Positions 6,200-18,263 of a DNA stretch of 64,000 nt are shown piece after piece. Where the stretch lies: IMG/VR virus record IMGVR_UViG_3300022752_000052, positions 1-64,000 of that record. One strand, given 5' to 3'. The notes under the pieces are model-generated. The model ran no database searches and had not been told where the DNA came from. It worked only from the letters and a program-made list of their open reading frames with translations. Position 1 is the stretch's first letter; the number at the start of each line of letters is the position of its first letter. The stretch is from a virus. The translations under genes and the position numbers were made by a program.

Positions 6200-6228
6200 C
6201 TTTTAGTTTAGTGGTTAATAATATGATA

Positions 6229-6285
6229 CAAAGATAGGGGTACCGGATCTACTATACAATACCCCTATAGTTAATTTTTTGTTAA
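6229..6285 (-). promoter_or_regulatory. Family-A promoter with dyad operator
   Basis: TATCTTTG at 6229-6236, TTG at 6257-6259 and TTAAC direct repeats at 6270-6274 and 6281-6285. The inverted repeat built on ATAGGGGTA overlaps both promoter boxes. The distal TTAAC overlaps the stop codon of the upstream gene. Confidence 0.8.
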
Positions 6286-6482
6286 TTAGCGTAGATGTTT
6301 GTATTCCTTCTAACTTCCTTGCTAATCTTGTAAGTACCGAAGTAATGCATTTTAGCCTTAGAGAGCAATCGTATGGCCTCTTTTTTAGTGTAGGCAGTAA
6401 CACAAGCGGCACCACAATAAAAGCCATTAGAATCAATCCTTGTGCCATTTAGGATAGCTACCCATTCCTTATTATTTCTCAT
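6282..6482 (-). CDS. Hypothetical protein (66 aa)
   Basis: A basic 66-residue protein, with a CGAACVTAYTKKEAIRLLSKA segment suggesting a short strand followed by an amphipathic helix. No family is recognised. It begins one base after the stop of 6484-6777, so it is translationally coupled to that gene. A second frame over the same DNA (6215-6448) reads through the promoter and is not a gene. Confidence 0.6.
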   Translation of the reverse strand: MRNNKEWVAILNGTRIDSNGFYCGAACVTAYTKKEAIRLLSKAKMHYFGTYKISKEVRRNTNIYAN

Positions 6483-6483
6483 A

Positions 6484-6777
6484 TTATTTTTTATAGTTGT
6501 TTAAAAATTCGGTGTACACATGGTCATACAATACTTCATCGGAATCATCTAAAATATTCATGTCAACATTCTCTACAATCTTACATGTCAATGCATCCAA
6601 ATTTTCCATGATAGACTCAAATGAACCCATCATGTGAGTAAATAGTAGGACATCTTTAGCATCTTTTGTTCCAAGTTTTTCTGATGTCTTATCGTCCTCA
6701 TTCATGATTTCATTACAGATGTTTGATACATGATAGGAAACAATCTTGAATAAATAAGAACTTCTGTCAATGTTCAT
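6484..6777 (-). CDS. Hypothetical acidic protein (97 aa)
   Basis: The open frame reaches 6906, but that extension translates the family-A promoter. I place the start at the ATG at 6777 (MNIDRSSYLF), after the conserved leader. The product is acidic and largely helical by composition, with Met-rich HMMGSFESIMENLD. No family is recognised. It is coupled to 6282-6482 downstream. Confidence 0.65.
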   Translation of the reverse strand: MNIDRSSYLFKIVSYHVSNICNEIMNEDDKTSEKLGTKDAKDVLLFTHMMGSFESIMENLDALTCKIVENVDMNILDDSDEVLYDHVYTEFLNNYKK

Positions 6778-6809
6778 TTTTTTTAGTTTAGTGGTGAATA
6801 AATATAGTG

Positions 6810-6866
6810 CAAAGATAAGGGTATCGGATATACTATGCAATACCCTTATCGTTAATGTTTTGTTAA
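6810..6866 (-). promoter_or_regulatory. Family-A promoter with perfect 11-bp dyad
   Basis: TATCTTTG at 6810-6817 and TTG at 6838-6840. The inverted repeat GATAAGGGTAT (6814-6824) / ATACCCTTATC (6840-6850) is perfect. TTAAC repeats at 6851-6855 and 6862-6866. Confidence 0.85.
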
Positions 6867-7102
6867 TCTTCGTCCTCGTCGGAAAGGGGAACATATCCTT
6901 CCTCATTTTCTAGAGCATCGGTAATTGAATACCATATCTGCTCCATGGTCGCTCCGTTGGTAAGAGCATCATTTAATATTCTATGAGCATCTTCCACACT
7001 TGCTCCCTTGTGTAAGGATTGTACGTCCTCAATGTGCCATAGGTTATCAACAAAGTAACCATGGTCTCTTAATACCTTTTTTGCATCTTCTACTGCGTCC
7101 AT
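6863..7102 (-). CDS. Hypothetical protein (79 aa), homologous to C-terminal half of 7470-7910
   Basis: It starts MDAVEDAKKVLRDHGYFVDN, nearly identical to residues from about 74 onward of the 146-residue protein at 7470-7910, and continues with LWHIEDVQ against LWHIQNVQ. The rest is acidic and ends LSDEDED. No promoter separates it from 7130-7369, so the two halves are separate genes in one operon here but a single protein at 7470-7910. Function unknown; the strict pairing suggests the two parts work together. Confidence 0.7.
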   Translation of the reverse strand: MDAVEDAKKVLRDHGYFVDNLWHIEDVQSLHKGASVEDAHRILNDALTNGATMEQIWYSITDALENEEGYVPLSDEDED

Positions 7103-7129
7103 TTTTTTTTTAGTTTAGTGGCGATTAAT

Positions 7130-7369
7130 TCAAAACAATATTATTCGAGCATCTCTTTCGGTTATATAGCCAACCTCTAAGGCTATGTCACAACCATTCT
7201 CTAATGCTTTCAAAAGGTCTTCGTAGGATTCGCATAGTCCTTCGCTTAGGTCGTCATCTAGTACATAGATAGAGCCGTCGAATAAACCTGACTGATAAAC
7301 TTCTTTAGCTTTATCGGTAATCAATAACCATACAAAACCATCAACAATTTTAATTTTTTGGTTGTCCAT
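7130..7369 (-). CDS. Hypothetical protein (79 aa), homologous to N-terminal half of 7470-7910
   Basis: The start is the ATG at 7369 (MDNQKIKIVDGFVWLL), not the longer frame that reads through the promoter. Its first 34 residues are identical to those of the 146-residue protein at 7470-7910; afterwards the two diverge (VLDDDLSEGLCESYEDLLKAL against an ETYEELIDAL region). It is acidic and small, with an N-terminal strand-rich part and a C-terminal helix. It is cotranscribed with 6863-7102. Confidence 0.7.
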   Translation of the reverse strand: MDNQKIKIVDGFVWLLITDKAKEVYQSGLFDGSIYVLDDDLSEGLCESYEDLLKALENGCDIALEVGYITERDARIILF

Positions 7370-7401
7370 TTTTTTTAGTTTAGTGGTGAATAAATATAGT
7401 G

Positions 7402-7458
7402 CAAAGATAAGGGTATCGGATATACTATGCAATACCCCTATCGTTAATGTTTTGTTAA
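7402..7458 (-). promoter_or_regulatory. Family-A promoter
   Basis: TATCTTTG 7402-7409, TTG 7430-7432, and TTAAC repeats at 7443-7447 and 7454-7458. The dyad arms GATAAGGGTAT and ATACCCCTATC differ at one position. Drives the split gene pair 7130-7369 and 6863-7102. Confidence 0.85.
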
Positions 7459-7469
7459 TCTCCGAATTC

Positions 7470-7910
7470 CTAGAAGATGTTCTCATCTTGGAAGTACAAC
7501 TCAATTGCATCAATAATTGCTAACGAGATTTGATCCGTGATATCTTCGTTGGTAAGAGCCATTTTTAAAATCTTTTGAGCATCTTCATCGCTAGCCTCCA
7601 TGTAGTTAAATTGAACATTCTGGATATGCCATAGGTTATCAACAAAGTAACCATGGTCTCTCAATACCTCTTTTGCATCTTCTACTGCGTCAGTATTCCT
7701 AGACCGTCCGATTTCTATTGCAATTTCAAGACCTCTCTCTAATGCATCAATAAGTTCTTCATAGGTCTCTATAAAGTCTGTTTCTACATCGTCATCATAT
7801 AGCGCGTAGATAGAGCCATCGAATAAACCTGACTGGTAAACTTCCTTAGCTTTGTCGGTAATCAATAACCATACAAAACCATCAACAATTTTAATTTTTT
7901 GGTTGTCCAT
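7470..7910 (-). CDS. Hypothetical two-domain protein (146 aa), fused form of the split pair
   Basis: The N-terminal domain (about 1-70) matches the product of 7130-7369 and the C-terminal domain (about 74-146) matches 6863-7102, in the same order, so this gene is the joined version of the neighbouring pair. The junction reads EIGRSRNTDAVEDAK. Both copies sit behind near-identical promoters, which points to a recent tandem duplication followed by splitting of one copy or joining of the other. No known domain. Confidence 0.75.
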   Translation of the reverse strand: MDNQKIKIVDGFVWLLITDKAKEVYQSGLFDGSIYALYDDDVETDFIETYEELIDALERGLEIAIEIGRSRNTDAVEDAKEVLRDHGYFVDNLWHIQNVQFNYMEASDEDAQKILKMALTNEDITDQISLAIIDAIELYFQDENIF

Positions 7911-7941
7911 TTTTTTAGTTTAGTGGTGAATAAATATAGTG

Positions 7942-7998
7942 CAAAGATAAGGGTATCGGATATACTATGCAATACCCCTATCGTTAATGTTTTGTTAA
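7942..7998 (-). promoter_or_regulatory. Family-A promoter
   Basis: The same sequence as at 7402-7458: TATCTTTG 7942-7949, TTG 7970-7972, TTAAC 7983-7987 and 7994-7998. The distal TTAAC overlaps the stop codon of 7995-8483. Confidence 0.85.
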
Positions 7999-8483
7999 AA
8001 GGGTAAGTTGGTATTTAGAATGTTAAGACCTTCTTCTCTCTTCTGCTTGCATAGGTTTCTTAAGTAATTAGAACCTTGCTCAGTCATTAACAAGTCTTCT
8101 ATTTTTGTACGCTTACCGCCTACAAGTACTTCAAGCAAATTGTAGAAGTTTTCTGTACCAATACATAACCCCTTACTAAAATCCTTTTCTCGTTTTTTCT
8201 TATAATAGTCTTTTAACCAAGAATTGAACAGTTCATCTACTACATTCTCTACGCTAGGCTTACCTACATAATTATCATTGTCAGGAAGAGTTTTACAGTA
8301 AGACTCCATTTGGCCGTACAACTCTCTATCGCCTATACAATAACAGTAGGTATATCCCCCCATTCCATCATTTTTACAGTACCCTACTTTCTTTCCGTTA
8401 AAGAAAACATTTGCTTGGAAACAACAAGTCTCTTGTGAATTCCATTCAGAGAATTTAACACTCTTTAATTCAATCTTATTCAT
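7995..8483 (-). CDS. Hypothetical protein (162 aa)
   Basis: The N-terminus FSEWNSQETCCFQANVFFNGKKVGYCKNDGMGG (residues 11-43) looks like a small conserved beta domain with paired cysteines. I recall similar openings in uncharacterised Bacteroidota phage and mobile-element proteins but cannot name a family. The C-terminal half is helical and basic. It ends NILNTNLPF; the LPF ending resembles an SSB tip but lacks the acidic residues. Single gene with its own promoter. Confidence 0.65.
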   Translation of the reverse strand: MNKIELKSVKFSEWNSQETCCFQANVFFNGKKVGYCKNDGMGGYTYCYCIGDRELYGQMESYCKTLPDNDNYVGKPSVENVVDELFNSWLKDYYKKKREKDFSKGLCIGTENFYNLLEVLVGGKRTKIEDLLMTEQGSNYLRNLCKQKREEGLNILNTNLPF

Positions 8484-8513
8484 TTTTTTAGTTTATGTGG
8501 TGAATAATATAGT

Positions 8514-8556
8514 GCAAATATATGGGGGATATTTGAGAAAGTCAATACCCCCCTAT
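8514..8556 (-). promoter_or_regulatory. Promoter with GGGGGTAT-type dyad (family C)
   Basis: TATATTTG at 8514-8521 and TTG near 8543. The dyad is built from CCCCC and GGGGG runs flanked by AT, with the same geometry as family A. Degenerate TTAAG and TTAAA repeats 11 bases apart lie upstream. Confidence 0.7.
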
Positions 8557-8568
8557 TTTAATTATTTC

Positions 8569-9141
8569 TTAATTTTCCGCGGGGCTACCCTCTCTATATA
8601 TCCTAATCATTTCTTCCATGTCTTCAGCATCAACATAAGAATAATCTTCCTTAATTTGTTCTTCACTTTCAATAAATCCCTCTTCAACATCAATAACAAA
8701 ATCTTCAAAAAAACCATCAGTACCTAAATGCTTATATTGATATTCCCTATAAGACATTTCAACTATACTCAATTCATCCCCATTTTCATCAATATCTATA
8801 ATACCTGCAAAGCCCATCCCTGGCTCTGAATATTCAATCCGTCCGTTCACTCCGTACTTCTTACATACTTTTTGAACAAATTCATTACATGGACTCCAAG
8901 CCGTTTCACAATTAAAATAATCATGTTGCTCCATTGTATCCCTAATGTCGTCATCCATCATCACACTCCATTTAGTACCGAACTCCGCATTCCATACATC
9001 ATAATTCCATTCACTCTTAATGTCCGTCAATGCAGTGAACATGCAATGACCATCCTTAATCATGCTAACATCTTTTTTCAATGTCTGCATAGCTTTTTCC
9101 GTACCTTCAAATGAGATACAATTTGAACACCAATTTGGCAT
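8569..9141 (-). CDS. Api92-like / DUF1281-type protein (190 aa)
   Basis: The N-terminus MPNWCSNCISFEG and the later ETAWSPCNEF and YSEPGMGFAGI follow the pattern of the Api92-like family with a ferredoxin-like fold (MPNWC start, NxAWSPP, then a GMxFAG motif), known from phages, plasmids and integrative elements. The molecular function is unknown. The C-terminal third is strongly acidic (VEEGFIESEEQIKED). The last codons, GSPAEN, are written in the GC-rich word CCCCGCGGAAAA that recurs near other gene ends. Confidence 0.75.
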   Translation of the reverse strand: MPNWCSNCISFEGTEKAMQTLKKDVSMIKDGHCMFTALTDIKSEWNYDVWNAEFGTKWSVMMDDDIRDTMEQHDYFNCETAWSPCNEFVQKVCKKYGVNGRIEYSEPGMGFAGIIDIDENGDELSIVEMSYREYQYKHLGTDGFFEDFVIDVEEGFIESEEQIKEDYSYVDAEDMEEMIRIYREGSPAEN

Positions 9142-9174
9142 AATCTAAAAATTTAAATGGTTAATAATATGTCG

Positions 9175-9216
9175 CAAAGATAATAACATTCTATCTAATA
9201 TCATAATCATAGAATG
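9175..9216 (-). promoter_or_regulatory. Promoter with CATTCTAT dyad
   Basis: TATCTTTG at 9175-9182. The inverted repeat CATTCTAT (9187-9194) / ATAGAATG (9209-9216) has different half-sites from family A but a similar position. No clear TTG at -33. Confidence 0.6.
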
Positions 9217-9440
9217 AAAAATATATGTTAAATAAATGTTAAAATGAAATGCAGTAAAATGTAACTCATACTATATCTCATCTATTCCCTATCATCTAAT
9301 TGACATTGCAAAAATACACCCCATTTCCCTATTATCCTAATTTCAAATGTTAAAAGGATCTAAGAAAATGTTAAAAAAATGTTAAACCCGAATCCCCACA
9401 CATTACTGGCCATGCTGGAAAGAGGGGCCTGGAAAATTTA
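9217..9440 (-). other. AT-rich upstream region with a second promoter candidate
   Basis: Non-coding. Minus-strand TATTTTTG (9309-9316) fits the -7 consensus and could be a distal promoter for 8569-9141. Beyond it are several AACATTT words spaced about 11-17 bases apart, as in the other distal promoter regions (12.2, 13.8 and 15.6 kb). Confidence 0.4.
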
Positions 9441-9467
9441 CTCGGGCAAGGCTTTGCCTTGCCCGAG
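9441..9467 (-). repeat. Class-1 palindrome
   Basis: A perfect 12-bp stem, CTCGGGCAAGGC, around TTT, flanked by CGAAATTCACTAG. On the minus strand it is followed by TAAATTTT. First of seven copies between 9.4 and 18.3 kb. Confidence 0.85.
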
Positions 9468-9491
9468 CGAAATTCACTAGCAACAAAAAAA

Positions 9492-9514
9492 CTCCTGACA
9501 TAGACTGCCAGGAG
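9492..9514 (-). terminator. Terminator of the 10143 operon
   Basis: CTCCTG (9492-9497) with CAGGAG (9509-9514), followed on the minus strand by seven T. It ends the unit 10143-9544, which includes the tRNA-like gene. Confidence 0.8.
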
Positions 9515-9543
9515 CGAACCACTTAAACTTATTAACCTTTGGA

Positions 9544-9665
9544 AGTCAGGGCAGGACTTGAACCTGCAAGGCTACCGCGCTACCGCGTTGATACTTTTTT
9601 TATTTAACGTGAGGATAGCGTAACCTCATTACAGTTTTTTAGCGTCTACCTTCCGCCACCTGACT
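9544..9665 (-). tRNA. tRNA-Leu-like gene with large insertion or degenerate
   Basis: The acceptor stem AGTCAGG/CCTGACT is perfect. T8-G9, the D arm GCG-GAAGGTAGA-CGC and the T arm GCAGG-TTCAAGT-CCTGC are canonical and of the leucine type. Between the D and T arms are about 75 bases, where a leucine tRNA needs about 40, and no normal anticodon stem-loop is visible; TGAGG/CCTCA with a 9-base loop is the best hairpin. It could contain an intron or be a pseudogene. It lies at the end of the 10143 operon, before the terminator. Confidence 0.5.
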
Positions 9666-9682
9666 TATCATTTACTTATTAA

Positions 9683-9892
9683 TTATTTCCTTTTTTCATA
9701 AGAATTAAATACATCACTAGATGGGATATAATTAGCCTCGTTCTTATAAAACAAAGCTGCATTAATTATAGCACTAATAAGTTCTTCTTCAGTCAAGTAC
9801 ACAAGTTCTGATGAATCAAACTCGTCTGAAAGTAAGTCTTCTAAAGTAATTACTAAATCTTTTCTAGTAAGATTTTTTAGTTCTACTAACAT
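9683..9892 (-). CDS. Hypothetical acidic protein (69 aa)
   Basis: The ATG at 9892 (MLVELKNLTRKDLVIT) follows the common leader; the longer frame to 9937 overlaps the upstream gene. It is rich in Glu, Asp and Leu (LEDLLSDEFDSSELVYLTEEEL) with two helices likely. No family is recognised. Second gene in the 10143 unit. Confidence 0.6.
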   Translation of the reverse strand: MLVELKNLTRKDLVITLEDLLSDEFDSSELVYLTEEELISAIINAALFYKNEANYIPSSDVFNSYEKRK

Positions 9893-9915
9893 AATTTTAT
9901 AATTTAAAGTGGTGA

Positions 9916-10143
9916 TTAATAATCTTCTTCGATACACTCGATATGAAATGCTATTACATCTTCATCATCTTTAGTAAGAGTGCCAGCTTTAGCTCTCTCC
10001 AATAATTCAATTAATTCATTATAATCATCAAACATTTTATCTTCTTCTTCTTCGTCCATATAAGGTGAGTATATCATACAATGAGGATTGTAGGTTTCAA
10101 ACCAAGATTCTAACTTATCTAACATTTCATTGTCTAGCTGCAT
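9916..10143 (-). CDS. Hypothetical acidic protein (75 aa)
   Basis: A very acidic 75-residue protein (MDEEEEDKMFDDYNEL) with a Glu/Asp-rich C-terminus (IAFHIECIEEDY). No family is recognised. Small acidic phage proteins often act as decoys or inhibitors of nucleic-acid-binding host proteins, but nothing specific supports this here. First gene after a family-A promoter. Confidence 0.6.
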   Translation of the reverse strand: MQLDNEMLDKLESWFETYNPHCMIYSPYMDEEEEDKMFDDYNELIELLERAKAGTLTKDDEDVIAFHIECIEEDY

Positions 10144-10177
10144 GATTTAAAATTTAAAGTGGTGAATAATTATAGTG

Positions 10178-10234
10178 CAAAGATAAGGGTATCGAATATA
10201 CTATGCAATACCCTTATCGTTAATGTTTTGTTAA
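10178..10234 (-). promoter_or_regulatory. Family-A promoter
   Basis: TATCTTTG 10178-10185, TTG 10206-10208, and TTAAC at 10219-10223 and 10230-10234. Perfect GATAAGGGTAT/ATACCCTTATC dyad at 10182-10218. Confidence 0.85.
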
Positions 10235-10236
10235 AA

Positions 10237-10791
10237 CTAGTATATTAGTTTTTTCTCTTGAATTAATAGTTCTGTGATGTCCTTTATATCTCTACCTAAG
10301 ATATGGAGCTTGATTACATCTTGCCCTAGTTCGATGATTTGAGAAACAGATTCTAGGGGGTATTCCTTATAAGAAGAATGCTCTAACCATCTTTTGCCTA
10401 TCCTAATAGTTCCCGTAAAATTGCAAGATAATTTTCTTCCACAACTTTCAAAAGGAGCGGCAAGATAGATTTTTATATATCCTCTACCATGGCCAAACAT
10501 TAAAGATTCACTAATCCCGTTATAATATAAAGTGATTTCATAATCTCCTCCACAAGCTAAATGAGCATACAGATTGTTGTAACCATTAACTTCAAAATAA
10601 GGTAAATCTAATTTATCCATAACATTGGATAGTTCACCATAATAACTAAGCACAAGTTCTTTGAATCTTTTAATAACTTCTAGATTGTGAGAGTCTATAT
10701 CTCTTACATTCTGATTTGACTCTTGAATCAAAGTTGACAAATTAAATACAGACAAATCAATATTGCCTTTGGTGGCTTTTAGTTCAAACAT
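10237..10791 (-). CDS. Hypothetical protein (184 aa)
   Basis: The start is the ATG at 10791 (MFELKATKGNIDLSVF); the frame to 10854 includes promoter sequence. Residues 1-65 are probably helical; the middle (about 70-140) has strand-like stretches and a HGRGYIKIYLAAP segment with two Cys. It ends with a charged helix. No family is recognised. Single gene with a family-A promoter. Confidence 0.65.
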   Translation of the reverse strand: MFELKATKGNIDLSVFNLSTLIQESNQNVRDIDSHNLEVIKRFKELVLSYYGELSNVMDKLDLPYFEVNGYNNLYAHLACGGDYEITLYYNGISESLMFGHGRGYIKIYLAAPFESCGRKLSCNFTGTIRIGKRWLEHSSYKEYPLESVSQIIELGQDVIKLHILGRDIKDITELLIQEKKLIY

Positions 10792-10823
10792 AATAAATAA
10801 ATTTAGTGGTTTAAAATATAGTG

Positions 10824-10880
10824 CAAAGATAAGGGTATCGGATATACTATGCAATACCCTTATCGTTAATGTTTTGTTAA
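10824..10880 (-). promoter_or_regulatory. Family-A promoter
   Basis: TATCTTTG 10824-10831, TTG 10852-10854, TTAAC 10865-10869 and 10876-10880, with a perfect 11-bp dyad. The GC word CCGCGGGG follows directly upstream. Confidence 0.85.
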
Positions 10881-10896
10881 TTTTCCGCGGGGATTT

Positions 10897-11307
10897 TTAA
10901 CTCTTATATTCCCCCAATCCCATACCGTCAGGAATAGAATCAATACACAATTTATAGTCAACCGAAACAATGTGAGAAATATCCCTATTATCAATATCTT
11001 CCCCCAGAAAAGTCCAATTAGGAGCAACTTTAGGATTGTACTTAATTTTAAAATCAGACTCTTTAATAAAATCAGAATATCTAATCTCTAAATGATTACA
11101 TAAAATCCATGCACATACAACCTTAGTACTTTCCCCATTAAAAATCTTAGTAGCTAATTTCTTATTATTCTTTAAAGTGCATCCCATCATGATTAATTGA
11201 ACTTCACATGGATTGTAATATGTGACAACTCCATTATTGCCAATCACTCTCCATTTCATATAATTTTCTCCACGTTGTAAAGAGAATCTAACTTTAATCC
11301 TTTTCAT
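10897..11307 (-). CDS. Hypothetical protein (136 aa)
   Basis: Starts MKRIKVRFSLQRGENYMKWRV; an internal Met17 is an alternative. It is basic at the N-terminus, with three Cys between residues 37 and 71, and a mixed strand/helix profile. No family is recognised. Just after its stop is CCCCGCGGAAAATTAAC, the GC word that also occurs at other gene boundaries. Confidence 0.6.
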   Translation of the reverse strand: MKRIKVRFSLQRGENYMKWRVIGNNGVVTYYNPCEVQLIMMGCTLKNNKKLATKIFNGESTKVVCAWILCNHLEIRYSDFIKESDFKIKYNPKVAPNWTFLGEDIDNRDISHIVSVDYKLCIDSIPDGMGLGEYKS

Positions 11308-11339
11308 GTTTTTTAATTTAAGTGGTTAATAATCTGATG

Positions 11340-11397
11340 CAAATGTAGGGGGAATATTTGATAAAGTAAATACCCCCCTATGTTAATGTTATGTTAA
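11340..11397 (-). promoter_or_regulatory. Family-C promoter with TTAAC repeats
   Basis: TACATTTG 11340-11347. A dyad of CCCCC/GGGGG runs lies between the boxes. TTAAC at 11382-11386 and 11393-11397 are 11 bases apart, the distal one overlapping the upstream stop codon. TTT stands in place of TTG at -33. Confidence 0.7.
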
Positions 11398-12101
11398 TGG
11401 ATTACATTGTAAATATTCTTAGCTTTCTTTCCACCTTCACACAATCCACATTTAGCGCAGCTTACTTGCTTTTCTTTTGCTATGGTTGGTGCTGATGGAC
11501 AAAGGATAGCACCTTCAACCTCACTAGCATTGTAAGACCTGAATCCAAGGCCTTCGGCTAATTTTACGTCAAAGATATTATGCGTACTAGCCATTAAGTA
11601 TTTTGCATAAGGCTTATTCTCTGGTTTGTGCCATTGGTGAGTATAGCCTGAAACCTTACCAACCAAAGGCCTTATTTGTTCTATCAACTCAAAAGGTAAT
11701 AATGTAGGCTCTCCATACGTTCCCAATCTAGCAAAGGATATTTTAACCTTTTTTGTAACGCTCGTAATTTGTTCCATTACGCCTTCAGCTCCTTCCGGAA
11801 TTAATCCGTTATCCAAACGCTTTTTTAAGGCTTTTAATTTTGCAATCAATCCCCATGCTAGGGATCCGTTCGCATGGGTATAGCAACCTCCTGACTTTCC
11901 GTCGTTTGCATTATAAGAGAACTTACAATCAAAACATACCTTTGAGTCATTTTTTAGGCTACCTTCATTAATCTGGTCAATAGAAAAATGATAAGTTTGT
12001 AAGATAATTTCGCCTTTTTTAGCGAGCTTCGGAGTGGCACTAGGCTTGATATCGATACAGTGGATAACGTCGCCTAATCTGAAATTAATTTGCTTAAGCA
12101 T
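11394..12101 (-). CDS. Cysteine-rich phage protein, DUF7227-like (235 aa), paralogue of 16125-16844
   Basis: The start is the ATG at 12101, chosen by alignment with the paralogue (MLKQINFRLGDVIHCIDIK). Motifs in order: CFDCKFSYN, GKSGGCYTH, ARLGTYGEPTLLP, GYTHQWHKPE, MASTHN, LGFRSYN, ILCPSAP, and SCAKCGLC at the C-terminus. The Cys/His pattern suggests metal or Fe-S binding. It resembles a family of phage and plasmid proteins I know as DUF7227 (name from memory, uncertain). The molecular function is not established. Confidence 0.7.
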   Translation of the reverse strand: MLKQINFRLGDVIHCIDIKPSATPKLAKKGEIILQTYHFSIDQINEGSLKNDSKVCFDCKFSYNANDGKSGGCYTHANGSLAWGLIAKLKALKKRLDNGLIPEGAEGVMEQITSVTKKVKISFARLGTYGEPTLLPFELIEQIRPLVGKVSGYTHQWHKPENKPYAKYLMASTHNIFDVKLAEGLGFRSYNASEVEGAILCPSAPTIAKEKQVSCAKCGLCEGGKKAKNIYNVIH

Positions 12102-12134
12102 AACTTGTGTATTTAAGTGGTTAATAATCTGATG

Positions 12135-12240
12135 CAAAAATAAAAAGTAATTTTCTATTTTCCAAATTTAAGGCAAACTTTTTTTAAATTATTTTTTTGC
12201 CTTTCTAATTACTCTCTCTCTTAACAACACCACAAAGATA
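12135..12240 (-). promoter_or_regulatory. Tandem promoters P1 and P2
   Basis: P1: TATTTTTG at 12135-12142 with TTG at 12163-12165. P2: TATCTTTG at 12233-12240, with TTAAC repeats upstream spaced 11, 21 and 11 bases (to about 12310). Nearly the same pair occurs at 13740-13844. Confidence 0.65.
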
Positions 12241-12332
12241 AGCATAAAAACAATACCTAGTAGTTAAGGGAGTGTTAATGTTTTCCCTATTTTAGTTAAG
12301 GAAATGTTAAGATCCGCCCCTGCAAAAAATTA

Positions 12333-12359
12333 CTCGGGCAGGGCAAAGCCCTGCCCGAG
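12333..12359 (-). repeat. Class-1 palindrome
   Basis: CTCGGGCAGGGC, AAA, GCCCTGCCCGAG: a perfect 12-bp stem. On the minus strand it is followed by TAATTTTTTGC, so it could act as a second terminator. Confidence 0.85.
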
Positions 12360-12378
12360 CGAAATTCACTGGCATGAA

Positions 12379-12410
12379 AAAACCCTCCCGGAGTTAACCA
12401 GGAGGGTTTT
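12379..12410 (-). terminator. Rho-independent terminator
   Basis: AAAACCCTCC (12379-12388) with GGAGGGTTTT (12401-12410), directly after the stop at 12414; T tract on both strands. Confidence 0.85.
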
Positions 12411-12413
12411 TAT

Positions 12414-12890
12414 TTACGAGTGCATATTCACTAAGACAACAAAAGTAAATTTGCCATTAGTGTATAATTCAGAAATACCAGGTTCGTCAATACTTCCGTC
12501 ATAAAAAGTATCTGACCATATATCAACTTTAGTAGGGTCTGAAAGACTTGCTATTTCAGATTGCTCTTTGCAATAATTAGCGGCACATCTCCAATCAAAA
12601 GGATGAACTATTTCAGTATTCTCTAAATTAGACACCTTAAGGAATGCTTGCTTGTAGTAATCATTTACCTCTGTTAAAAAATTAAATCTATTTGGGTCAT
12701 TAAGTAATTCATCCTTAGTTATCCATTTCTCATCAAAAGATTCAGAGAATGATTTGTCTTCTTTGCAATGAGAACCCATGATAGTAAACCAATTATTCTC
12801 TGTACCCCAATCAAATAGATAGTCCTCAACAATGCCAATAGCGTCGGAATGAGAATCAGCTTTTGTTCTAATTAAATGCAGATTGTGCAT
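12414..12890 (-). CDS. Hypothetical protein (158 aa)
   Basis: The start is the ATG at 12890 (MHNLHLIRTKADSHSDA) after the standard leader; the frame to 12968 covers the promoter. It is acidic, with Trp-rich patches (FDWGTENNWFTIMGSH) and two Cys in the middle (HPFDWRCAANYCKEQ). It ends GKFTFVVLVNMHS. I recall similar small proteins of unknown function in Bacteroidota phages, without a family name. Single gene. Confidence 0.65.
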   Translation of the reverse strand: MHNLHLIRTKADSHSDAIGIVEDYLFDWGTENNWFTIMGSHCKEDKSFSESFDEKWITKDELLNDPNRFNFLTEVNDYYKQAFLKVSNLENTEIVHPFDWRCAANYCKEQSEIASLSDPTKVDIWSDTFYDGSIDEPGISELYTNGKFTFVVLVNMHS

Positions 12891-12924
12891 AATTTTAAAA
12901 TTTAAAGTGGTGATTAATATTTTA

Positions 12925-12966
12925 CAAAGATAGGAGGAACATTTTACATTTCCAAACATTCCCCCC
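12925..12966 (-). promoter_or_regulatory. Family-B promoter with GGGGAAT-type dyad
   Basis: TATCTTTG 12925-12932, TTG 12953-12955. The dyad has arms near GGAGGAAC and ATTCCCCC, at the same geometry as family A but with different half-sites and no TTAAC pair. Confidence 0.7.
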
Positions 12967-12979
12967 ACATTTTTTTAAA

Positions 12980-13705
12980 TTAATTTGCGAACTCCATAGA
13001 AAGATTAGCTAACCTCTCATTGATAATTGCAGTCTTGTTTGGGTCTTTCAATGCAGAATATTTTCTTCTACCTGCAAACCCATTAATCAATTTTTCTTGA
13101 ATGCGATTCTGAATTGCCCAAAGCGTATTTTCATCATCTGCGAACCTTTCTGACGCAAGTAATACCTTAGCCTCATTTTCTGTAAAGGCTCTCTTAAAAC
13201 GCAAAGCAGCAGCCTTCATGGCGAATTCAATAGCCTTTTCTTCGGTCAAGTTTACAGACATTTGCTGCAATACATATTCCTCGAGTTTAGGTAGCAATTC
13301 AAAAAAGTTGGCTACAATCTCACCTGAAATAACTTTCTCTGAAATATCGATTGCCTTCTTTCCAAAATGCCTTATTTTGAAAATCTTAGATTCAAATCTT
13401 GAATCCGATACAGTTAGTCCGTTTGAGCATACTAATCTAAATATCCCCATTGAACATTCAAACCCAACCGTTCCGTCAAACGAATTACGGATAACGACCT
13501 CTGGATATAAGGTTTCACCATTTAAGATTAATTCCTTATTGTACCTCATTCTAATAAGGTGCGCGGAACTTTTAGCACCTTTCTTTTTAGTCTGAAAGCC
13601 CGAAAGCTCAAAACCATTAGACTGAAGGTCATTAATTAATTTCTTTGAGCTAATAGCTACATACTTTGCGCTTAGATTTGCGCTTACTTCTTCTGTGAAA
13701 AGCAT
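12980..13705 (-). CDS. DUF932 family phage/plasmid protein (241 aa)
   Basis: The core from about residue 47 to 105 (HLIRMRYN, YPEVVIRNSFDG, FECSMGIFRLVCSNGLTVSD) is the signature of DUF932, a widespread phage and plasmid family of unknown function often annotated from genomic islands. A helical C-terminal domain follows. At 241 residues it is a normal or slightly short member. Tandem promoters upstream are shared with 11394-12101 by duplication. Confidence 0.8.
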   Translation of the reverse strand: MLFTEEVSANLSAKYVAISSKKLINDLQSNGFELSGFQTKKKGAKSSAHLIRMRYNKELILNGETLYPEVVIRNSFDGTVGFECSMGIFRLVCSNGLTVSDSRFESKIFKIRHFGKKAIDISEKVISGEIVANFFELLPKLEEYVLQQMSVNLTEEKAIEFAMKAAALRFKRAFTENEAKVLLASERFADDENTLWAIQNRIQEKLINGFAGRRKYSALKDPNKTAIINERLANLSMEFAN

Positions 13706-13739
13706 ACATTAAAAATTTAAAGTGGTTAAGAATCTGATG

Positions 13740-13844
13740 CAAAAATAAAGAGTAATTTTCTATTTTCCAAATTTAAGGCAAACTTTTTTTAAATTATTTT
13801 TTGCCTTTCTAATTACCCTCTCTCTTTATAACACTACAAAGATA
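13740..13844 (-). promoter_or_regulatory. Tandem promoters P1 and P2 (copy of 12135-12240)
   Basis: P1: TATTTTTG 13740-13747 with TTG 13768-13770. P2: TATCTTTG 13837-13844, with phased TTAAC words further upstream. Confidence 0.65.
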
Positions 13845-13936
13845 AGTATAAAAACAATACCTAGTAGTTAAGGGAGTGTTAATGTTTTCCCTATTTTAGT
13901 TAAGGAAATGTTAAAATCCTGGTCCTGCAAAAATTA

Positions 13937-13963
13937 CTCAGGCAGGGCTTTGCCCTGCCTGAG
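13937..13963 (-). repeat. Class-1 palindrome
   Basis: CTCAGGCAGGGC, TTT, GCCCTGCCTGAG: a perfect 12-bp stem with compensating changes relative to the copy at 12333. Confidence 0.85.
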
Positions 13964-13985
13964 CGAAATTCACTGGCATGAAGAT

Positions 13986-14012
13986 CCCCGACGGACACTA
14001 AATCCGACGGGG
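13986..14012 (-). terminator. Hairpin terminator
   Basis: CCCCGACGG/CCGACGGGG with one A-A mismatch and a 9-base loop, downstream of 14034. The T tract is weak; the adjoining class-1 palindrome supplies a better one. Confidence 0.6.
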
Positions 14013-14033
14013 CAAAAAACAAGTCATGTATTC

Positions 14034-14243
14034 TTACCTTAGCTTTGCTCTAAAATAATTAAAAACTTCGGGGATATCTTTCTTGTAATACGGTTGATTA
14101 TCCTTAAGCCATTCCTTTAGTTCTTTGTCATTTTTAAAAGGTGCTGTCCAGGAATGACTATTAATAATTCTATTAAAAGTGGGCTCAAGTTCATCTATAA
14201 AATCTTGAACTGTCCAACCTTCCCAAATATGTTTATTATTCAT
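14034..14243 (-). CDS. Hypothetical protein (69 aa)
   Basis: The start is the ATG at 14243 (MNNKHIWEGWTVQDF) after a CCCCGCGAAAAACTT leader. A Trp-rich N-terminal half is followed by a helical, charged part (NDKELKEWLKDNQPYYKKD). No family is recognised. Confidence 0.6.
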   Translation of the reverse strand: MNNKHIWEGWTVQDFIDELEPTFNRIINSHSWTAPFKNDKELKEWLKDNQPYYKKDIPEVFNYFRAKLR

Positions 14244-14282
14244 TTTACTTTTTTTAAGTTTTTCGCGGGGATTAATATAATT

Positions 14283-14323
14283 TAAAGATAGGGAGAACAT
14301 TTATATTTTTAAACATTCCCCCA
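14283..14323 (-). promoter_or_regulatory. Weak family-B promoter
   Basis: TATCTTTA at 14283-14290 departs from the consensus in the last base. GGGAGAAC and the ATTCCCCC arm lie at the family-B positions. Confidence 0.45.
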
Positions 14324-14336
14324 TCTTTTTTAAATC

Positions 14337-14729
14337 CTATCCATATATAATTTCATTTAAAAATACAATCTGTAAAACAACATCTCCAGTAACTGCATCA
14401 TCATTATCATTTATCATGTCTAACAGATGGTCTAAGGGAACATTCTTAACTCTTTCATGTACTGTATCTAATGTAATATATTCTGTATCCATTCCACCTT
14501 CAAGGTCTTTCAATCCAATTCTAACTCCATCTCTTAACATTTGCATTAAAACATCTTCATAACATGGACTACTCAATTTAGCCTTAGCATTATTGTAGTC
14601 AGATTGTTTGTACTTTAAATCAAGTCCATATCCACTACACATATAATCCAATGAATTACATAAAGCATTGAAAAAAATCTCTTCGCTCAATTCATTTGTA
14701 AGCGAAACTTTTAAACCTTCTTTGTTCAT
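14337..14729 (-). CDS. Hypothetical protein (130 aa)
   Basis: A helical, acidic 130-residue protein with two Cys near 24-32 (ALCNSLDYMCSGYGL) and one later. No family is recognised. It is 42 bases downstream of 14772-14999 with no promoter between, so the two are cotranscribed. Confidence 0.6.
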   Translation of the reverse strand: MNKEGLKVSLTNELSEEIFFNALCNSLDYMCSGYGLDLKYKQSDYNNAKAKLSSPCYEDVLMQMLRDGVRIGLKDLEGGMDTEYITLDTVHERVKNVPLDHLLDMINDNDDAVTGDVVLQIVFLNEIIYG

Positions 14730-14771
14730 TTTTTAAGTATTTAAGTGGTGATTAAGATATTGAAATTCTAC

Positions 14772-14999
14772 TTATCTGTTTTCCATAATTTGACTAATCA
14801 TAATATCCATTGCTTCCTTATGCGTGAGAATGTTTCCAAACTCTAACATACTTTCTTCATCATAATATACTCCATTTCTGTCATTCCATTTTAACCAACT
14901 AATTAAGCTTTCTCTTGTCCATTTGCTTAATTCCTCTCTTAATTGTGATTCATTCATAGAATCATCTAAGATTCCATAAAAATTATGTCTTGTTCCCAT
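14772..14999 (-). CDS. Hypothetical protein (75 aa)
   Basis: The start is the ATG at 14999 (MGTRHNFYGILDDSMNES); the upstream part of the frame belongs to the leader. It has repeated aromatic/charged stretches (LSKWTRESLISWLKWNDRNG) and a helical end. No family is recognised. First gene after a family-B promoter. Confidence 0.6.
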   Translation of the reverse strand: MGTRHNFYGILDDSMNESQLREELSKWTRESLISWLKWNDRNGVYYDEESMLEFGNILTHKEAMDIMISQIMENR

Positions 15000-15032
15000 A
15001 GATACTTTATTTAAGTGGTGATTAATATAAGG

Positions 15033-15071
15033 CAAAGATAAGGGGAATATTTTACATTTCCAAACATTCCC
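15033..15071 (-). promoter_or_regulatory. Family-B promoter
   Basis: TATCTTTG 15033-15040, TTG 15061-15063, with the dyad GGGGAAT/ATTCCCC across the spacer. Confidence 0.75.
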
Positions 15072-15081
15072 CTCACATTTT

Positions 15082-15576
15082 TTACGCTAATTGAAAAACT
15101 TCTTTTGCTTTTAGATTCTGAATGCAGTCAACCTCAATCATTCTCAATTCAAACTCATTAGATTCCGTTTCTGGTTCTATTTCTTGCATTCTTTTAACTA
15201 ATGCTAACCGATTCCGTTCTGTTGTTGCGTCTGGAAAACCCCATCTAACTTGTTTTCCTGGAATTAAGAAAATGCGTAGAAATTTCTTTAGGTTCTTTGG
15301 ATTGTCGAATAAATGACCTTTGTTATCCAAAGCTCTAGCCCAACCTGGATTTACTACAACTTCCTCGCCCTCTCTATTCTCTAATCTTTTTTTGTAGGTG
15401 CTACCCAATTGGCAGGTACGAAAAGTAATGCAGCGCACTTCTTCGCGAGAAATACCATTAGCAGCCAACCAACCATAAGTTAGCTTTTTTGCTACCTTTT
15501 CTGCTGATGACTCATACTGGATAGCAGCAAAAGTGTTTCTAGGCGATAAGCCCTCGATGAAATTTAGAATACTCAT
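15082..15576 (-). CDS. Hypothetical protein (164 aa)
   Basis: A basic 164-residue protein. The first half is helical (SAEKVAKKLTYGWLAANGIS), then CITFRTCQLGSTYKKRLENR and a basic RWGFPDATTERNRL region. The charge suggests nucleic-acid binding, but no motif is recognised. Single gene. Confidence 0.65.
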   Translation of the reverse strand: MSILNFIEGLSPRNTFAAIQYESSAEKVAKKLTYGWLAANGISREEVRCITFRTCQLGSTYKKRLENREGEEVVVNPGWARALDNKGHLFDNPKNLKKFLRIFLIPGKQVRWGFPDATTERNRLALVKRMQEIEPETESNEFELRMIEVDCIQNLKAKEVFQLA

Positions 15577-15611
15577 AAGACTTGTTTATTAAGTGGTTTA
15601 AAATTATGATA

Positions 15612-15619
15612 CAAAGATA
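15612..15619 (-). promoter_or_regulatory. Promoter -7 box
   Basis: TATCTTTG about 35 bases upstream of the ATG at 15576. The region upstream carries the P2-type TTAAC words (CTCTTAACTAC, CATTAAC). Confidence 0.6.
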
Positions 15620-15711
15620 AGGGTAAAATCAATACCTAGTAGTTAAGAGAATGTTAATGTTTTCCCTATTTTAGTTAAAGAAATGTTAAAATCCGCCCCT
15701 GCAAAAATTTA

Positions 15712-15738
15712 CTCAGGCAGGGCGGAGCCCTGCCTGAG
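15712..15738 (-). repeat. Class-1 palindrome
   Basis: CTCAGGCAGGGC, GGA, GCCCTGCCTGAG: a perfect 12-bp stem. Confidence 0.85.
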
Positions 15739-15761
15739 CGAAATTCACTGGCATGAAAGAT

Positions 15762-15788
15762 CCCCGACGGACACTAAATCCGACGGGG
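15762..15788 (-). terminator. Hairpin terminator
   Basis: The same hairpin as 13986-14012 (CCCCGACGG/CCGACGGGG), downstream of 15812. Confidence 0.6.
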
Positions 15789-15811
15789 CTAAAAAACAAG
15801 TTATTATATTT

Positions 15812-16042
15812 TTAGTAGTTTATGCCTCCTTCGCATCTACCGTTATTAAAAATTTGGTCGTCGCTTGGGTCTTCGTCGTAAATTGTTAGTATGTAATTTA
15901 CAAATTTTTCTAAGTCCTTTTTTGATATACCGTTGAACCCGTCGAAGTCCTTAAGTTCTGATACCGTTTCTTTTGCAAGTATTATAAGCTCTTCGTTTAT
16001 GTCGTTTTGAGAGCTTGCAGATATCCTACTGTTGATTGCCAT
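15812..16042 (-). CDS. Hypothetical protein (76 aa)
   Basis: An acidic, helical 76-residue protein (NDINEELIILAKETVSELKD) with a GISKKDLEKFVNYIL segment. It ends NNGRCEGGINY. No family is recognised. Confidence 0.6.
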   Translation of the reverse strand: MAINSRISASSQNDINEELIILAKETVSELKDFDGFNGISKKDLEKFVNYILTIYDEDPSDDQIFNNGRCEGGINY

Positions 16043-16076
16043 AACTTTATAATTTTAAGTGATTAATAATATGTTG

Positions 16077-16117
16077 CAAATATAAGGGGAATATTTGAAA
16101 TATCCAAACATTCCCCT
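16077..16117 (-). promoter_or_regulatory. Family-B promoter
   Basis: TATATTTG 16077-16084, TTG 16105-16107, with the dyad GGGGAAT/ATTCCCC between them. Confidence 0.75.
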
Positions 16118-16124
16118 ATATTTT

Positions 16125-16844
16125 TTAGTGTTTAGGAATATAAATATTTTTTGCGCTTATTGAATTTCCCGCACAAAGTCCACAATTGGCGCAAGATACC
16201 CTTTTTTCCTTTTCTATCGTTGGTGATGATGGACACATAATACTGTTTTCTATGGTGCCTACATTGAACGTCCTGAAGCCTAAATCATTGGCTATTTTTG
16301 CCTCAAAAATATTATGCGTCGAAGCCATCAATAATTTAGCGTATTCCTTAAATTCCGGTTTGTTCCACTGATGGGTATAACCCGTTTTACGTTTTGCTAA
16401 TTTAGATAAACCGTTTAACAAATCTAAAGGTAGTGTAACCGCTTCACCATACGAGCCAAACCGTACTAATGAAATATTTAGATTTTTGGCAGTCAATTTA
16501 TCTAAATACTTGTTTAATAAAGGCAGTACGTCGCTATAATCTGTAGCTAATAAACCTAATTTATACTTTTTATTAAGAGAGCGTAATTTAGATTTTAAGC
16601 CTTTTAGCATATTACCTTTATGCGTATAACAGCCACCACTTTTACCGCTGTTTTGATTGTAGCTAAAAGGACAATCTAAACAATTTTCTTTATCTTGAGT
16701 AAAGTCATTGTTTATAACTTGCTGCAAATCATAGTGATACGTTTGTACAACAAAACGACCACCAAGTTTTTTTGTAGCCGATAATTTAAGGTCTATAGAA
16801 TGTACTGTTTGACCTAAAATAAAATTGAAACCTAAGATTTTCAT
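16125..16844 (-). CDS. Cysteine-rich phage protein, DUF7227-like (239 aa), paralogue of 11394-12101
   Basis: All motifs of the paralogue are in the same order: CLDCPFSYN, GKSGGCYTHKG, VRFGSYGEAVTLP, GYTHQWNKPE, MASTHN, LGFRTFN, IMCPSSP and SCANCGLC near the C-terminus. Overall identity by eye is moderate, so the duplication is old. Conserved Cys, His and Arg residues suggest a metal-dependent activity. Each copy has its own promoter of a different family, so they may be expressed at different times. Confidence 0.7.
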   Translation of the reverse strand: MKILGFNFILGQTVHSIDLKLSATKKLGGRFVVQTYHYDLQQVINNDFTQDKENCLDCPFSYNQNSGKSGGCYTHKGNMLKGLKSKLRSLNKKYKLGLLATDYSDVLPLLNKYLDKLTAKNLNISLVRFGSYGEAVTLPLDLLNGLSKLAKRKTGYTHQWNKPEFKEYAKLLMASTHNIFEAKIANDLGFRTFNVGTIENSIMCPSSPTIEKEKRVSCANCGLCAGNSISAKNIYIPKH

Positions 16845-16881
16845 AACCTGTTTTTGTTTAAGTGATTAATTAATTGCATTA

Positions 16882-16889
16882 CAAAGATA
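16882..16889 (-). promoter_or_regulatory. Promoter -7 box
   Basis: TATCTTTG upstream of 16844, followed upstream by the P2-type region (AAACATTAACACTTTTTTAAC). Confidence 0.6.
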
Positions 16890-16991
16890 ATACTATTTTT
16901 TAAATTTTAATAATAAGTTTAGTTAAAAAAGTGTTAATGTTTTCCCTATTTTAGTTAAAGAAATGTTAAGATTCGCCCCTGCAAAAATTTA

Positions 16992-17018
16992 CTCAGGCAA
17001 GGCTCCGCCTTGCCTGAG
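16992..17018 (-). repeat. Class-1 palindrome
   Basis: CTCAGGCAAGGC, TCC, GCCTTGCCTGAG: a perfect 12-bp stem; flank GCGAAATTCGCTAGC. Confidence 0.85.
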
Positions 17019-17041
17019 CGAAATTCGCTAGCATAAGAATG

Positions 17042-17067
17042 CCCACCAAACCGTTCCGTTTGGTGGG
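17042..17067 (-). terminator. Hairpin terminator
   Basis: CCCACCAAAC (17042-17051) with GTTTGGTGGG (17058-17067), a 10-bp stem just downstream of 17080. The T-rich side faces the gene. Confidence 0.65.
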
Positions 17068-17079
17068 TTTCTTTATTTA

Positions 17080-17316
17080 TTAGTGAGCTAAAAGATATAT
17101 CCCAGGTTGTCCCTTTGAAGGTCCGTTTCCAACAGGTATCGGCCTTATGGGCTTTTGTATTTTAAATTGGTTTTCAAACCGATTAATTTCGTTATCCAAT
17201 TCATAGGCTACATCTATAAAATCGGTAAAATCTAAATTACCGTTTTCTGAAATTGCCTTTTTAATAGCCGATTGAAGAGTTTTTAAAGCGCCTTTTTTTT
17301 CTTTTAAAGTAACCAT
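17080..17316 (-). CDS. Hypothetical protein (78 aa)
   Basis: A basic helical N-terminal half (LKEKKGALKTLQSAIKKAI) and a Pro/Gly-rich tail (RPIPVGNGPSKGQPGIYLLAH). No family is recognised. Its promoter is a diverged family-A copy. Confidence 0.6.
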   Translation of the reverse strand: MVTLKEKKGALKTLQSAIKKAISENGNLDFTDFIDVAYELDNEINRFENQFKIQKPIRPIPVGNGPSKGQPGIYLLAH

Positions 17317-17349
17317 TTTTAAGTTTTTTGTGGTTTAAAAATTATAAAG

Positions 17350-17406
17350 CAAAGATAAGGGTATTGAATGTATTATGCAATACCCTCGGTGTTAACGTTT
17401 TGTTAA
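17350..17406 (-). promoter_or_regulatory. Family-A promoter with degenerate dyad arm
   Basis: TATCTTTG 17350-17357, TTG 17378-17380, TTAAC 17391-17395 and 17402-17406. One arm is GATAAGGGTAT; the other, ATACCCTCGGT, has lost its outer bases. Confidence 0.8.
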
Positions 17407-17579
17407 ATTATCAGTACTGCAAATAATACAATTAGCAATATCCATAAGGACGAACCAATAAAAAATTTTGTTAACGTCTGTTTTACTGTATCGCCGTCGG
17501 CTTCGCTATTTAAAATCATAGCGTATAAACTAATCGGAAACCAACAGCCTAAAAAGAAAATTAAAATGAATAGGTACAT
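17403..17579 (-). CDS. Small membrane protein, two TM segments (58 aa)
   Basis: An ATG at 17579 begins 58 codons: MYLFILIFFLGCWFPISLYA, a polar loop NSEADGDTVKQT, then WILLIVLFAVLII at the end. It is a helical hairpin like the proteins at 1489 and 19736. The stop codon lies in the distal TTAAC of the next promoter, and it has its own -7 box and leader. Function unknown. Confidence 0.65.
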   Translation of the reverse strand: MYLFILIFFLGCWFPISLYAMILNSEADGDTVKQTLTKFFIGSSLWILLIVLFAVLII

Positions 17580-17621
17580 AACTTGTTTATTTAACGCCTT
17601 CGCTTCATTGCGACTGCATTA

Positions 17622-17629
17622 CAAAGATA
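17622..17629 (-). promoter_or_regulatory. Promoter -7 box
   Basis: TATCTTTG upstream of 17579, within an ACTATTTTTTAAATTT context shared with the box at 16882. Confidence 0.6.
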
Positions 17630-17731
17630 ATACTATTTTTTAAATTTTAATAATAAGTAGTAGTTAATAAGTGTTAATATTTTCGCTATTTTAGTTAAAG
17701 AAATGTTAAAATCCGCCCCTGCAAAAATTTA

Positions 17732-17758
17732 CTCAGGCAAGGCGGAGCCTTGCCGGAG
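17732..17758 (-). repeat. Class-1 palindrome
   Basis: CTCAGGCAAGGC, GGA, GCCTTGCCGGAG: one mismatch in a 12-bp stem. Confidence 0.8.
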
Positions 17759-17819
17759 CGAAATTCGCTAGCGGATTGATTCGGACAAAATCCAGGATTT
17801 ATAGGTAGCTATTATTTGA

Positions 17820-17843
17820 GGGGTTGAGCCGTAACTCAACCCC
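17820..17843 (-). terminator. Hairpin terminator
   Basis: GGGGTTGAG (17820-17828) with CTCAACCCC (17835-17843), just downstream of 17855. No T tract on the minus strand. Confidence 0.55.
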
Positions 17844-17854
17844 GAATTTCCGTT

Positions 17855-18052: not shown

Positions 18053-18103
18053 GGTACTTGTTTTTACGTTTAAGTGATTAATTAATTGCTTTTGATTGCA
18101 TTA

Positions 18104-18111
18104 CAAAGATA
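18104..18111 (-). promoter_or_regulatory. Promoter -7 box
   Basis: TATCTTTG about 50 bases upstream of the ATG at 18052; P2-type TTAAC words lie upstream. Confidence 0.6.
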
Positions 18112-18229: not shown

Positions 18230-18263
18230 CGAAATTCGCTCTGACAAGGGTCCTTAAGTTTCC

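Follow-up and report, generated by a model that had tools for sequence, protein, structure and literature searches.

Putative terminator-promoter composites with exchangeable stems at gene borders in a phage gene array

The repeated module in the left arm

The window analyzed here is the first 64,000 bases of IMG/VR virus record IMGVR_UViG_3300022752_000052, which is 77,616 bases long. The left arm of the window (about 1–26 kb) is an array of small open reading frames (ORFs) on the minus strand with many repeated intergenic stretches, and our subject is a short promoter module, overlapped by an inverted repeat, that recurs in these stretches. The genes elsewhere in the window are larger and include matches to DNA polymerase, ribonucleotide reductase and a DnaB-like helicase.

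The module reads TTAAC-N6-TTAAC-N10-TTG-N20-TATCTTTG and is matched exactly on the minus strand at positions 6229, 6810, 7402, 7942, 10178, 10824 and 17350, the seven sites that an earlier note, made from the sequence alone, had reported as sharing one order. When two mismatches are allowed on both strands, these seven remain the only matches, compared with an expectation of 0.00 from 100 dinucleotide shuffles. All seven carry a -7 TAnnTTTG box with a -33 TTG about 20 bases upstream, which bears out the proposal that they are repeated promoters of the Bacteroidota type. The note had further described one 11-bp inverted repeat. Its arms do overlap both boxes, but their sequence is not fixed: GATAAGGGTAT/ATACCCTTATC is complete in three of the seven modules only (6810, 10178 and 10824), GATAGGGG faces CCTTATC with one G·T at 7402 and 7942, and the arms are ATAGGGGTA/TACCCCTAT at 6229 and AGGGTATTG/CAATACCCT at 17350. 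Likewise, the distal TTAAC, said often to hold the stop codon of the preceding gene, does so in four modules (boxes 17357, 7949, 6817 and 6236), where the stop-to-box gap is 45 nt; in the other three, the gaps are 51, 60 and 65 nt.

We assign these seven to class A of the putative composite terminator-promoters. They span 6229–6285 (predicted hairpin 6234–6268, TATCTTTG at 6229–6236; dG −15.4), 6810–6866 (hairpin 6814–6850; dG −17.0), 7402–7458 (hairpin 7406–7442; dG −16.7; gap 60 nt), 7942–7998 (hairpin 7946–7982; dG −16.7), 10178–10234 (hairpin 10182–10218; dG −17.0; gap 51 nt), 10824–10880 (hairpin 10828–10864; dG −17.0; gap 65 nt) and, with shorter arms, 17350–17406 (hairpin 17357–17387; dG −11.6). 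Six more window promoters on the same strand (boxes 8522, 11347, 12932, 14290, 15040 and 16084) have a hairpin on the promoter core with different arms. The element at 8515–8571 has the arms GGGGGGTATT/AATATCCCCC (hairpin 8524–8553; dG −14.6; gap 46 nt), and that at 11340–11396 has other arms and the box TACATTTG (hairpin 11346–11380; dG −14.2; gap 46 nt). Class B, with the arms GGGGGAATGTTT / AAATGTTCCTCC, comprises 12925–12981 (dG −16.9; gap 47 nt), 14283–14339 (box TATCTTTA; dG −18.1; gap 46 nt), 15033–15089 (dG −18.9; gap 41 nt) and 16077–16133 (dG −20.1; gap 40 nt). Relative to shuffled sequences, the 13 hairpins have z values of −2.4 to −6.1 (the latter at 6810), and at most 3 of 200 shuffles fold equally well.

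The promoters counted in the window number 22, and nine of them have no core hairpin. Upstream of such promoters, separate terminator-like hairpins are found, also on the minus strand. Those that are GC-rich lie at 9440–9468 (dG −25.3; promoter boxed at 9182) and, followed by a U-tract, at 12332–12360 (dG −27.7, AATTTTTTG; box 12142), 13936–13964 (dG −26.2; boxes 13844–13747), 15711–15739 (dG −26.2; box 15619) and 16991–17019 (dG −23.8; box 16889). A further hairpin with a U-tract occupies 20734–20757 (dG −19.9, TTTTTTTAT; box 20574).

Core hairpins, gene ends and the TTAAC pair

Five IMG/VR records (L010–L014) encode a protein 95–100% identical to one left-arm protein of the window, and the module order recurs in all of them in the motif search that the earlier note had suggested. 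The pattern of a TTAAC pair plus TTG matches 13, 15, 13, 15 and 11 times in the five records, compared with 0, 0, 0, 0 and 1 times for a backwards control. L014 is a near-copy of the window across most of the array and has most promoters in common with it. Searches of viral_contigs with specific arms return the same five records only in one case and four of them in another.

To list promoters independently of any hairpin, we counted those that combine a -7-like box with a conserved leader and an ORF no shorter than 35 amino acids; promoters that lack the leader or such an ORF are left uncounted, and gene ends are mechanical ORF ends. For the window and the five records, this rule gives 123 rows, which reduce to 100 distinct promoters after identical copies and double boxes are dropped. 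The cut-offs (−7 for a core hairpin and −10 for any other hairpin) were chosen after similar data had been viewed, which is a weak point, and the energies are bimodal: 68 promoters lie at −7.5 or lower (to −24.5), and the remaining 32, in which the core hairpin is absent or weak, lie between 0 and −6.7. In all 68 core-hairpin promoters, the stop of a co-directional ORF lies 29–71 nt before the box, with a mode of 45 nt (29 of 68). Among the promoters without a core hairpin, the gap is at least 137 nt wherever it is known, and in 30 of the 32 a distinct hairpin, followed by a U-rich tail and mostly GC-rich and terminator-like, lies upstream.

The two kinds of hairpin almost never occur together. 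A core hairpin alone is found in 67 promoters, a separate one alone in 30, both in one and neither in two (Fisher p 5e-22, n = 100, a value that overstates independence because copies are related, both inside each of the six records and from one record to another). The window by itself gives 13, 9, 0 and 0 for the same categories (p 2e-6). In the sole promoter with both (L011, box 13141), the other hairpin has a dG of −10.4 and overlaps the 5′ arm. The core hairpin therefore sits where the upstream gene is otherwise without a terminator-like signal. The earlier note had regarded promoters kept without the dyad in related phages as speaking against its reading. Something close to this is seen within the same phages: 32 promoters have no core hairpin, and a gene whose orthologues carry it in two phages lacks it in the window.

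Of the 68 core-hairpin promoters, 39 have a TTAAC that begins at −38, 39 have one that begins at −49 and 38 have both. Promoters without a core hairpin have TTAAC at −27, −37/−38, −48/−49, −58 to −60, −69/−70 and −80. At a gap of 45 nt, the stop codon falls within the distal copy, which is TTAAC in 28 of 29 promoters and TTAA in 29 of 29. The class B promoters examined have an A-rich tract instead of the pair. The note had assigned TTAAC to an activator or UP-like contact. The helical phasing and the UP-element-like positions agree with this, and the 11-bp period upstream of -33 would fit contacts of the RNA polymerase alpha subunit or an activator as putative binding partners. The pair was also considered as a common host promoter element and rejected: the module with TAnnTTTG occurs in just 4 of 198 Bacteroidota genomes, one being L038 (backwards control 0), while a control pattern of the same composition occurs in 0 of 198 and its backwards form once in each of 4 genomes. 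Among the titles listed from the literature collection searched, none bears on a TTAAC pair in Bacteroidetes promoters.

Several promoter classes also have a conserved leader (AATCACTTAAA / AACCACTTAAA / CACCACTAAA) between the box and the start codon, at window positions 6176–25100 (for example, 6780–6800 and 12893–12920). Another border class is seen at 19535–22740, where a 198-base intergenic repeat with separate hairpins and a TATCTTTG-type promoter that lacks the -33 TTG occurs five times. An element of the form GTGGGGCGCGCATACC...ACGCGT-like stands before genes four times at 21702–25370, in a gap without a TAnnTTTG box.

Strand bias, exchange of arms and distant arrays

An operator is read as double-stranded DNA, and A·C and G·T mismatches are therefore expected to be equally likely. 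In contrast, the mismatches in the arms are mostly G·U in the sense RNA. In Watson-Crick-only registers of 48 distinct TTG-N20-TAnnTTTG sites (arm score at least 8, six records), we count 43 G·T, 1 A·C and 18 other non-pairs. Fixed registers in two alignments of 23 and 19 sequences, with one class A sequence that has an inserted base (L010, box 11272) excluded from the class A alignment A1, give 69 G·T versus 11 A·C cells and 9 other non-pairs. Counting by column, which lessens the effect of inheritance, gives 15 versus 6 (one-sided p 0.039), or 15 versus 4 without the three outer class A pairs (p 0.0096). In 54 of the 68 core-hairpin promoters, the predicted fold of the sense strand is more stable than that of the antisense strand (class A, 22 of 26; class B, 18 of 18). 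In class B, 12 cells are changed on both sides, in two pairs that go from G-C to A-U, and none of 500 shuffles attains this number of cells. Relative to the -7 box, the dyad axis of the 68 promoters ranges from −14.5 to −17, with predicted arm centers 16–25 nt apart.

A hairpin search over TAnnTTTG boxes reveals other arm classes in the same arrays, among them GGGGAATGTTT/AAATATTCCCC, GGGAGAATGTTT/AAATGTTCTCCC and GGGGGGAT/ATCCCCCC. Orthologues differ in arm class in 9 of 25 gene families, each a BLAST cluster represented in two or more phages other than L014 and in some cases including paralogues; the arms thus belong to the border and not to the gene. In the family MKSTILES/MKSTMLES, the hairpin is a separate one in the window, at a gap of 152 nt, while L011 and L013 have a core hairpin with gaps of 55 and 45 nt, and the switch from core to separate hairpin accompanies the longer gap. 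At 6863–7910 of the window, next to an adjacent module, a 146-aa gene lies beside a second copy that is split in two (79 + 79 aa), which might be a remnant of recombination between borders.

More distant phages were sought with three aligned relatives of a 235-aa protein as the query. At least 80 loci were obtained, of which 76 lie outside the known records (27–41% identity); these 76 and L038, a phage-like 5.4-kb contig in a Saprospiraceae genome bin, form a set of 77. Two of the phages, G206 (L105) and G207 (L064), have arrays of the same design as the window. We analyzed 40 kb of each with a core cut-off of −9 and a wider core stretch, again set after similar data had been viewed; L105 and L064, which had been viewed beforehand, lie inside the analyzed stretches L153 and L155. 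At gaps of 28–75 nt, 15 of 21 promoters have a core hairpin, compared with 2 of 21 at longer gaps, and both of the latter are U-tract hairpins located before the -33 box. The arms are unrelated to those of the window. In G206, GCATAAGT/ACTTATGC occurs in four exact copies and is also found on three other contigs, and GGATAAGT/ACTTATCC occurs in two more; a further distant-phage arrangement is AATGGCACTATC...GGTAGTGTCATT, followed by TCTTTTTAC and the -7 box.

The proteins of L038 are relatives of window proteins, with 45–89% identity over the longer matches, and its bin membership is weak evidence for a Saprospiraceae host. A scan of genome_contigs returned 43 stretches, 38 of them Bacteroidota as judged from record titles, and the GGGTA dyad occurs in L038 only. 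A search for the host found no DNA polymerase relative in genome_contigs. Host-genome promoters with a TTAAC pair and a core dyad that scores at least 9 were seen in L025, L029, L043 and L055; their arms are different and mostly AT-rich. For cultured relatives, a 7.75-kb DNA query had no match in 50,697 phage records. Among isolates, Flavobacterium phage immuto has the most similar DNA polymerase (47% identity); its 45–95 kb stretch holds eight boxes with an upstream TTG or TTAAC and, as judged by eye, the module at none of them. An uncultured 634-kb phage match has one qualifying promoter, without a core hairpin, in the 40 kb read.

Three further features of the window stand apart from the modules. 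A plus-strand gene at 26910–28781 encodes a 623-aa protein in which a signal-like start and a zinc-protease-like HEIGHNIG motif were noticed by eye, an unusual phage cargo. A tRNA-like gene, with its anticodon not assigned, lies at 5102–5175. Positions 1–442 contain repeats with a 12-base period, partly within a minus-strand ORF, whose product would be a four-residue xQVx-like repeat.

Interpretation and closest known systems

The modules are very probably composite terminator-promoters at the borders of co-directional phage genes, with exchangeable stems. This reading draws on what the sequences offer, namely the promoter consensus, the hairpin pairing, the sense-strand bias, the link to the upstream stop, the lack of another terminator-like hairpin and the exchangeable arms. 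From these we infer that transcription would terminate at the module, that the host polymerase would use the promoter and what the TTAAC pair may do. In such a scheme, the transcript of the upstream gene would pass its stop codon, often the TAA within the distal TTAAC, and enter the inverted repeat, which would fold as an RNA hairpin followed by UUAUCUUUG and serve as an intrinsic terminator or RNA 3′ end; the end of the upstream RNA is expected near TTATCTTTG. The same bases would act, as DNA, as the next promoter: its -33 TTG falls within the 5′ arm or the loop, and its -7 TAnnTTTG occupies the last bases of the 3′ arm and the U-rich tail. Initiation of the next RNA is expected a few bases past the -7 box, so that the hairpin would be absent from it. 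The TTAAC copies, which are 11 bp apart and whose centers precede the -7 box by about 36 and 47 bases, may be contacted by the alpha subunit, in an UP-like manner, or by an activator.

Several observations weigh against this reading, in addition to the relatedness of the copies. Across the 77 loci listed, TAnnTTTG boxes show no excess of core hairpins (71 of 1252, versus 66 of 1002 and 51 of 1237 for control motifs). In G206 and G207, 6 of the 21 short-gap promoters are without a core hairpin, it is missing in 13 of 15 promoters with gaps below 28 nt (present in 2), and a separate U-tract hairpin is found in only 10 of the 21 long-gap promoters. The G·T excess by columns is modest, and class C arms have no sense bias (7 of 14). 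The two class B pairs changed on both sides do not exceed shuffles (349 of 500), and covariation in class A is weak, with one such pair that shuffles equal in 148 of 500 by pairs and 21 of 500 by cells. The U-tail is imperfect, with a mean of 5.5 U in 9 positions and interruptions by A, C and G.

That imperfect tail would suit a different function of the same RNA, in which the hairpin would serve to protect the upstream mRNA at its 3′ end or to process it there, as an RNase block or a double-strand cleavage site, and would not terminate transcription. All the RNA-level evidence is shared by this alternative, but the structure that replaces the core hairpin in these genomes is mostly a GC-rich hairpin with a U-tract, as in a terminator, and we regard the alternative as quite unlikely. 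Still less likely, in our estimate, is the proposal of the earlier note that the dyad is the operator of one dimeric repressor, coded by the phage or the host and covering both promoter boxes. It accounts for the perfect or near-perfect symmetry over the boxes and for the many near-identical copies. However, no single half-site is conserved, the arms differ between promoter classes, between phages and on orthologous genes, and the variation in axis and arm spacing is unsuited to one rigid dimer. The mismatches are of the G·U type in one strand, and the presence of the dyad tracks the lack of an upstream terminator-like hairpin. A Pfam scan of 30 left-arm proteins, which is weak evidence, had no helix-turn-helix or repressor match. 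A phage-wide repressor regulon, as the note envisaged, is thus not supported.

Duplication alone could in principle explain the likeness of the copies, if a cassette had spread while its hairpin had no function of its own, and adjacent near-identical copies with a partly duplicated gene are indeed present. The pairing is nevertheless retained while the arms change, and the arms in G206 and G207 are unrelated, which leaves this explanation extremely improbable. A hairpin promoter in single-stranded DNA, of the N4- or F-like kind, was set aside because the strand that pairs is the sense strand.

A bolder version of the composite terminator-promoter would overlay a stop codon, an upstream activating site, a terminator and the next promoter in about 57 bases, with selected, freely exchangeable stems in several distant phage lineages, and would let the released polymerase restart on the next promoter. 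We consider this whole unlikely: the overlay is well supported, while a polymerase relay between genes is speculation. If the relay were true, the gene array would be a series with a separate RNA for each gene. The composite itself would mean that a single stretch of phage DNA can both close one transcription unit and open the following one, so that every small gene has an RNA to itself and a portable border through which cassettes can be exchanged. If termination is confirmed, the modules would be very compact insulated promoters for Bacteroidota genetics and would raise the question of whether a terminating polymerase re-initiates in place. They also warn that symmetry over promoters need not mean an operator; the two readings can be told apart by mismatches of the G·U type in one strand and by where the symmetry lies with respect to the upstream stop.

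No relevant description of a terminator-promoter overlap was found in the literature collection searched, judged by the titles listed where there were matches. The parts of the module resemble known elements. The promoter consensus for the Bacteroides primary sigma factor is given in a passage of PMC7366714 as -33 TTTG and -7 TAnnTTTG. Both boxes of the Bacteroidota primary-sigma promoter are present in the modules, in which the spacer and boxes are, however, also parts of a hairpin, and many copies are preceded by a phased TTAAC pair. As in an intrinsic (Rho-independent) terminator, a stable predicted hairpin follows shortly after the stop codon, with partly U-rich sequence after it. The U-tract of the modules differs in being broken by A, C and G because the -7 box requires those bases.

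The closest known system is the promoter-early stem-loop (PeSL) cassettes of T4-like phages, reportedly the subject of work by Arbiol in 2010 and Comeau in 2014. PeSL use sigma-70-like early promoters, and the DNA polymerase of T4 belongs to family B. The modules use the TTG/TAnnTTTG promoter of Bacteroidota instead, and the phage group differs by the one comparison made, that of DNA polymerase: immuto is not named T4-like, and its enzyme is annotated as family A. In passages of PMC4503421, PeSL of T4-like phages are said to mediate gene shuffling, and its reference list names them as composite promoter-terminator motifs; the PeSL work also appears in the reference list of PMC5931544. The likeness lies in small repeated composites of promoter and putative terminator among accessory genes, with a possible tie to gene shuffling. 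A composite of promoter and stem-loop of this type is repeated between genes in the window array, where the stem-loop would be the terminator, and the arm-class differences in 9 of 25 families would fit PeSL-like shuffling. A trait that may set the modules apart is that their stem coincides with the promoter core, the -7 box doubling as the U-rich tail. Because the promoter is of another type, the phages are of a different group by that comparison and recombination at the modules is a conjecture, we do not file them as PeSL; they appear to work like PeSL, as a very tight form of a known phage gene border.

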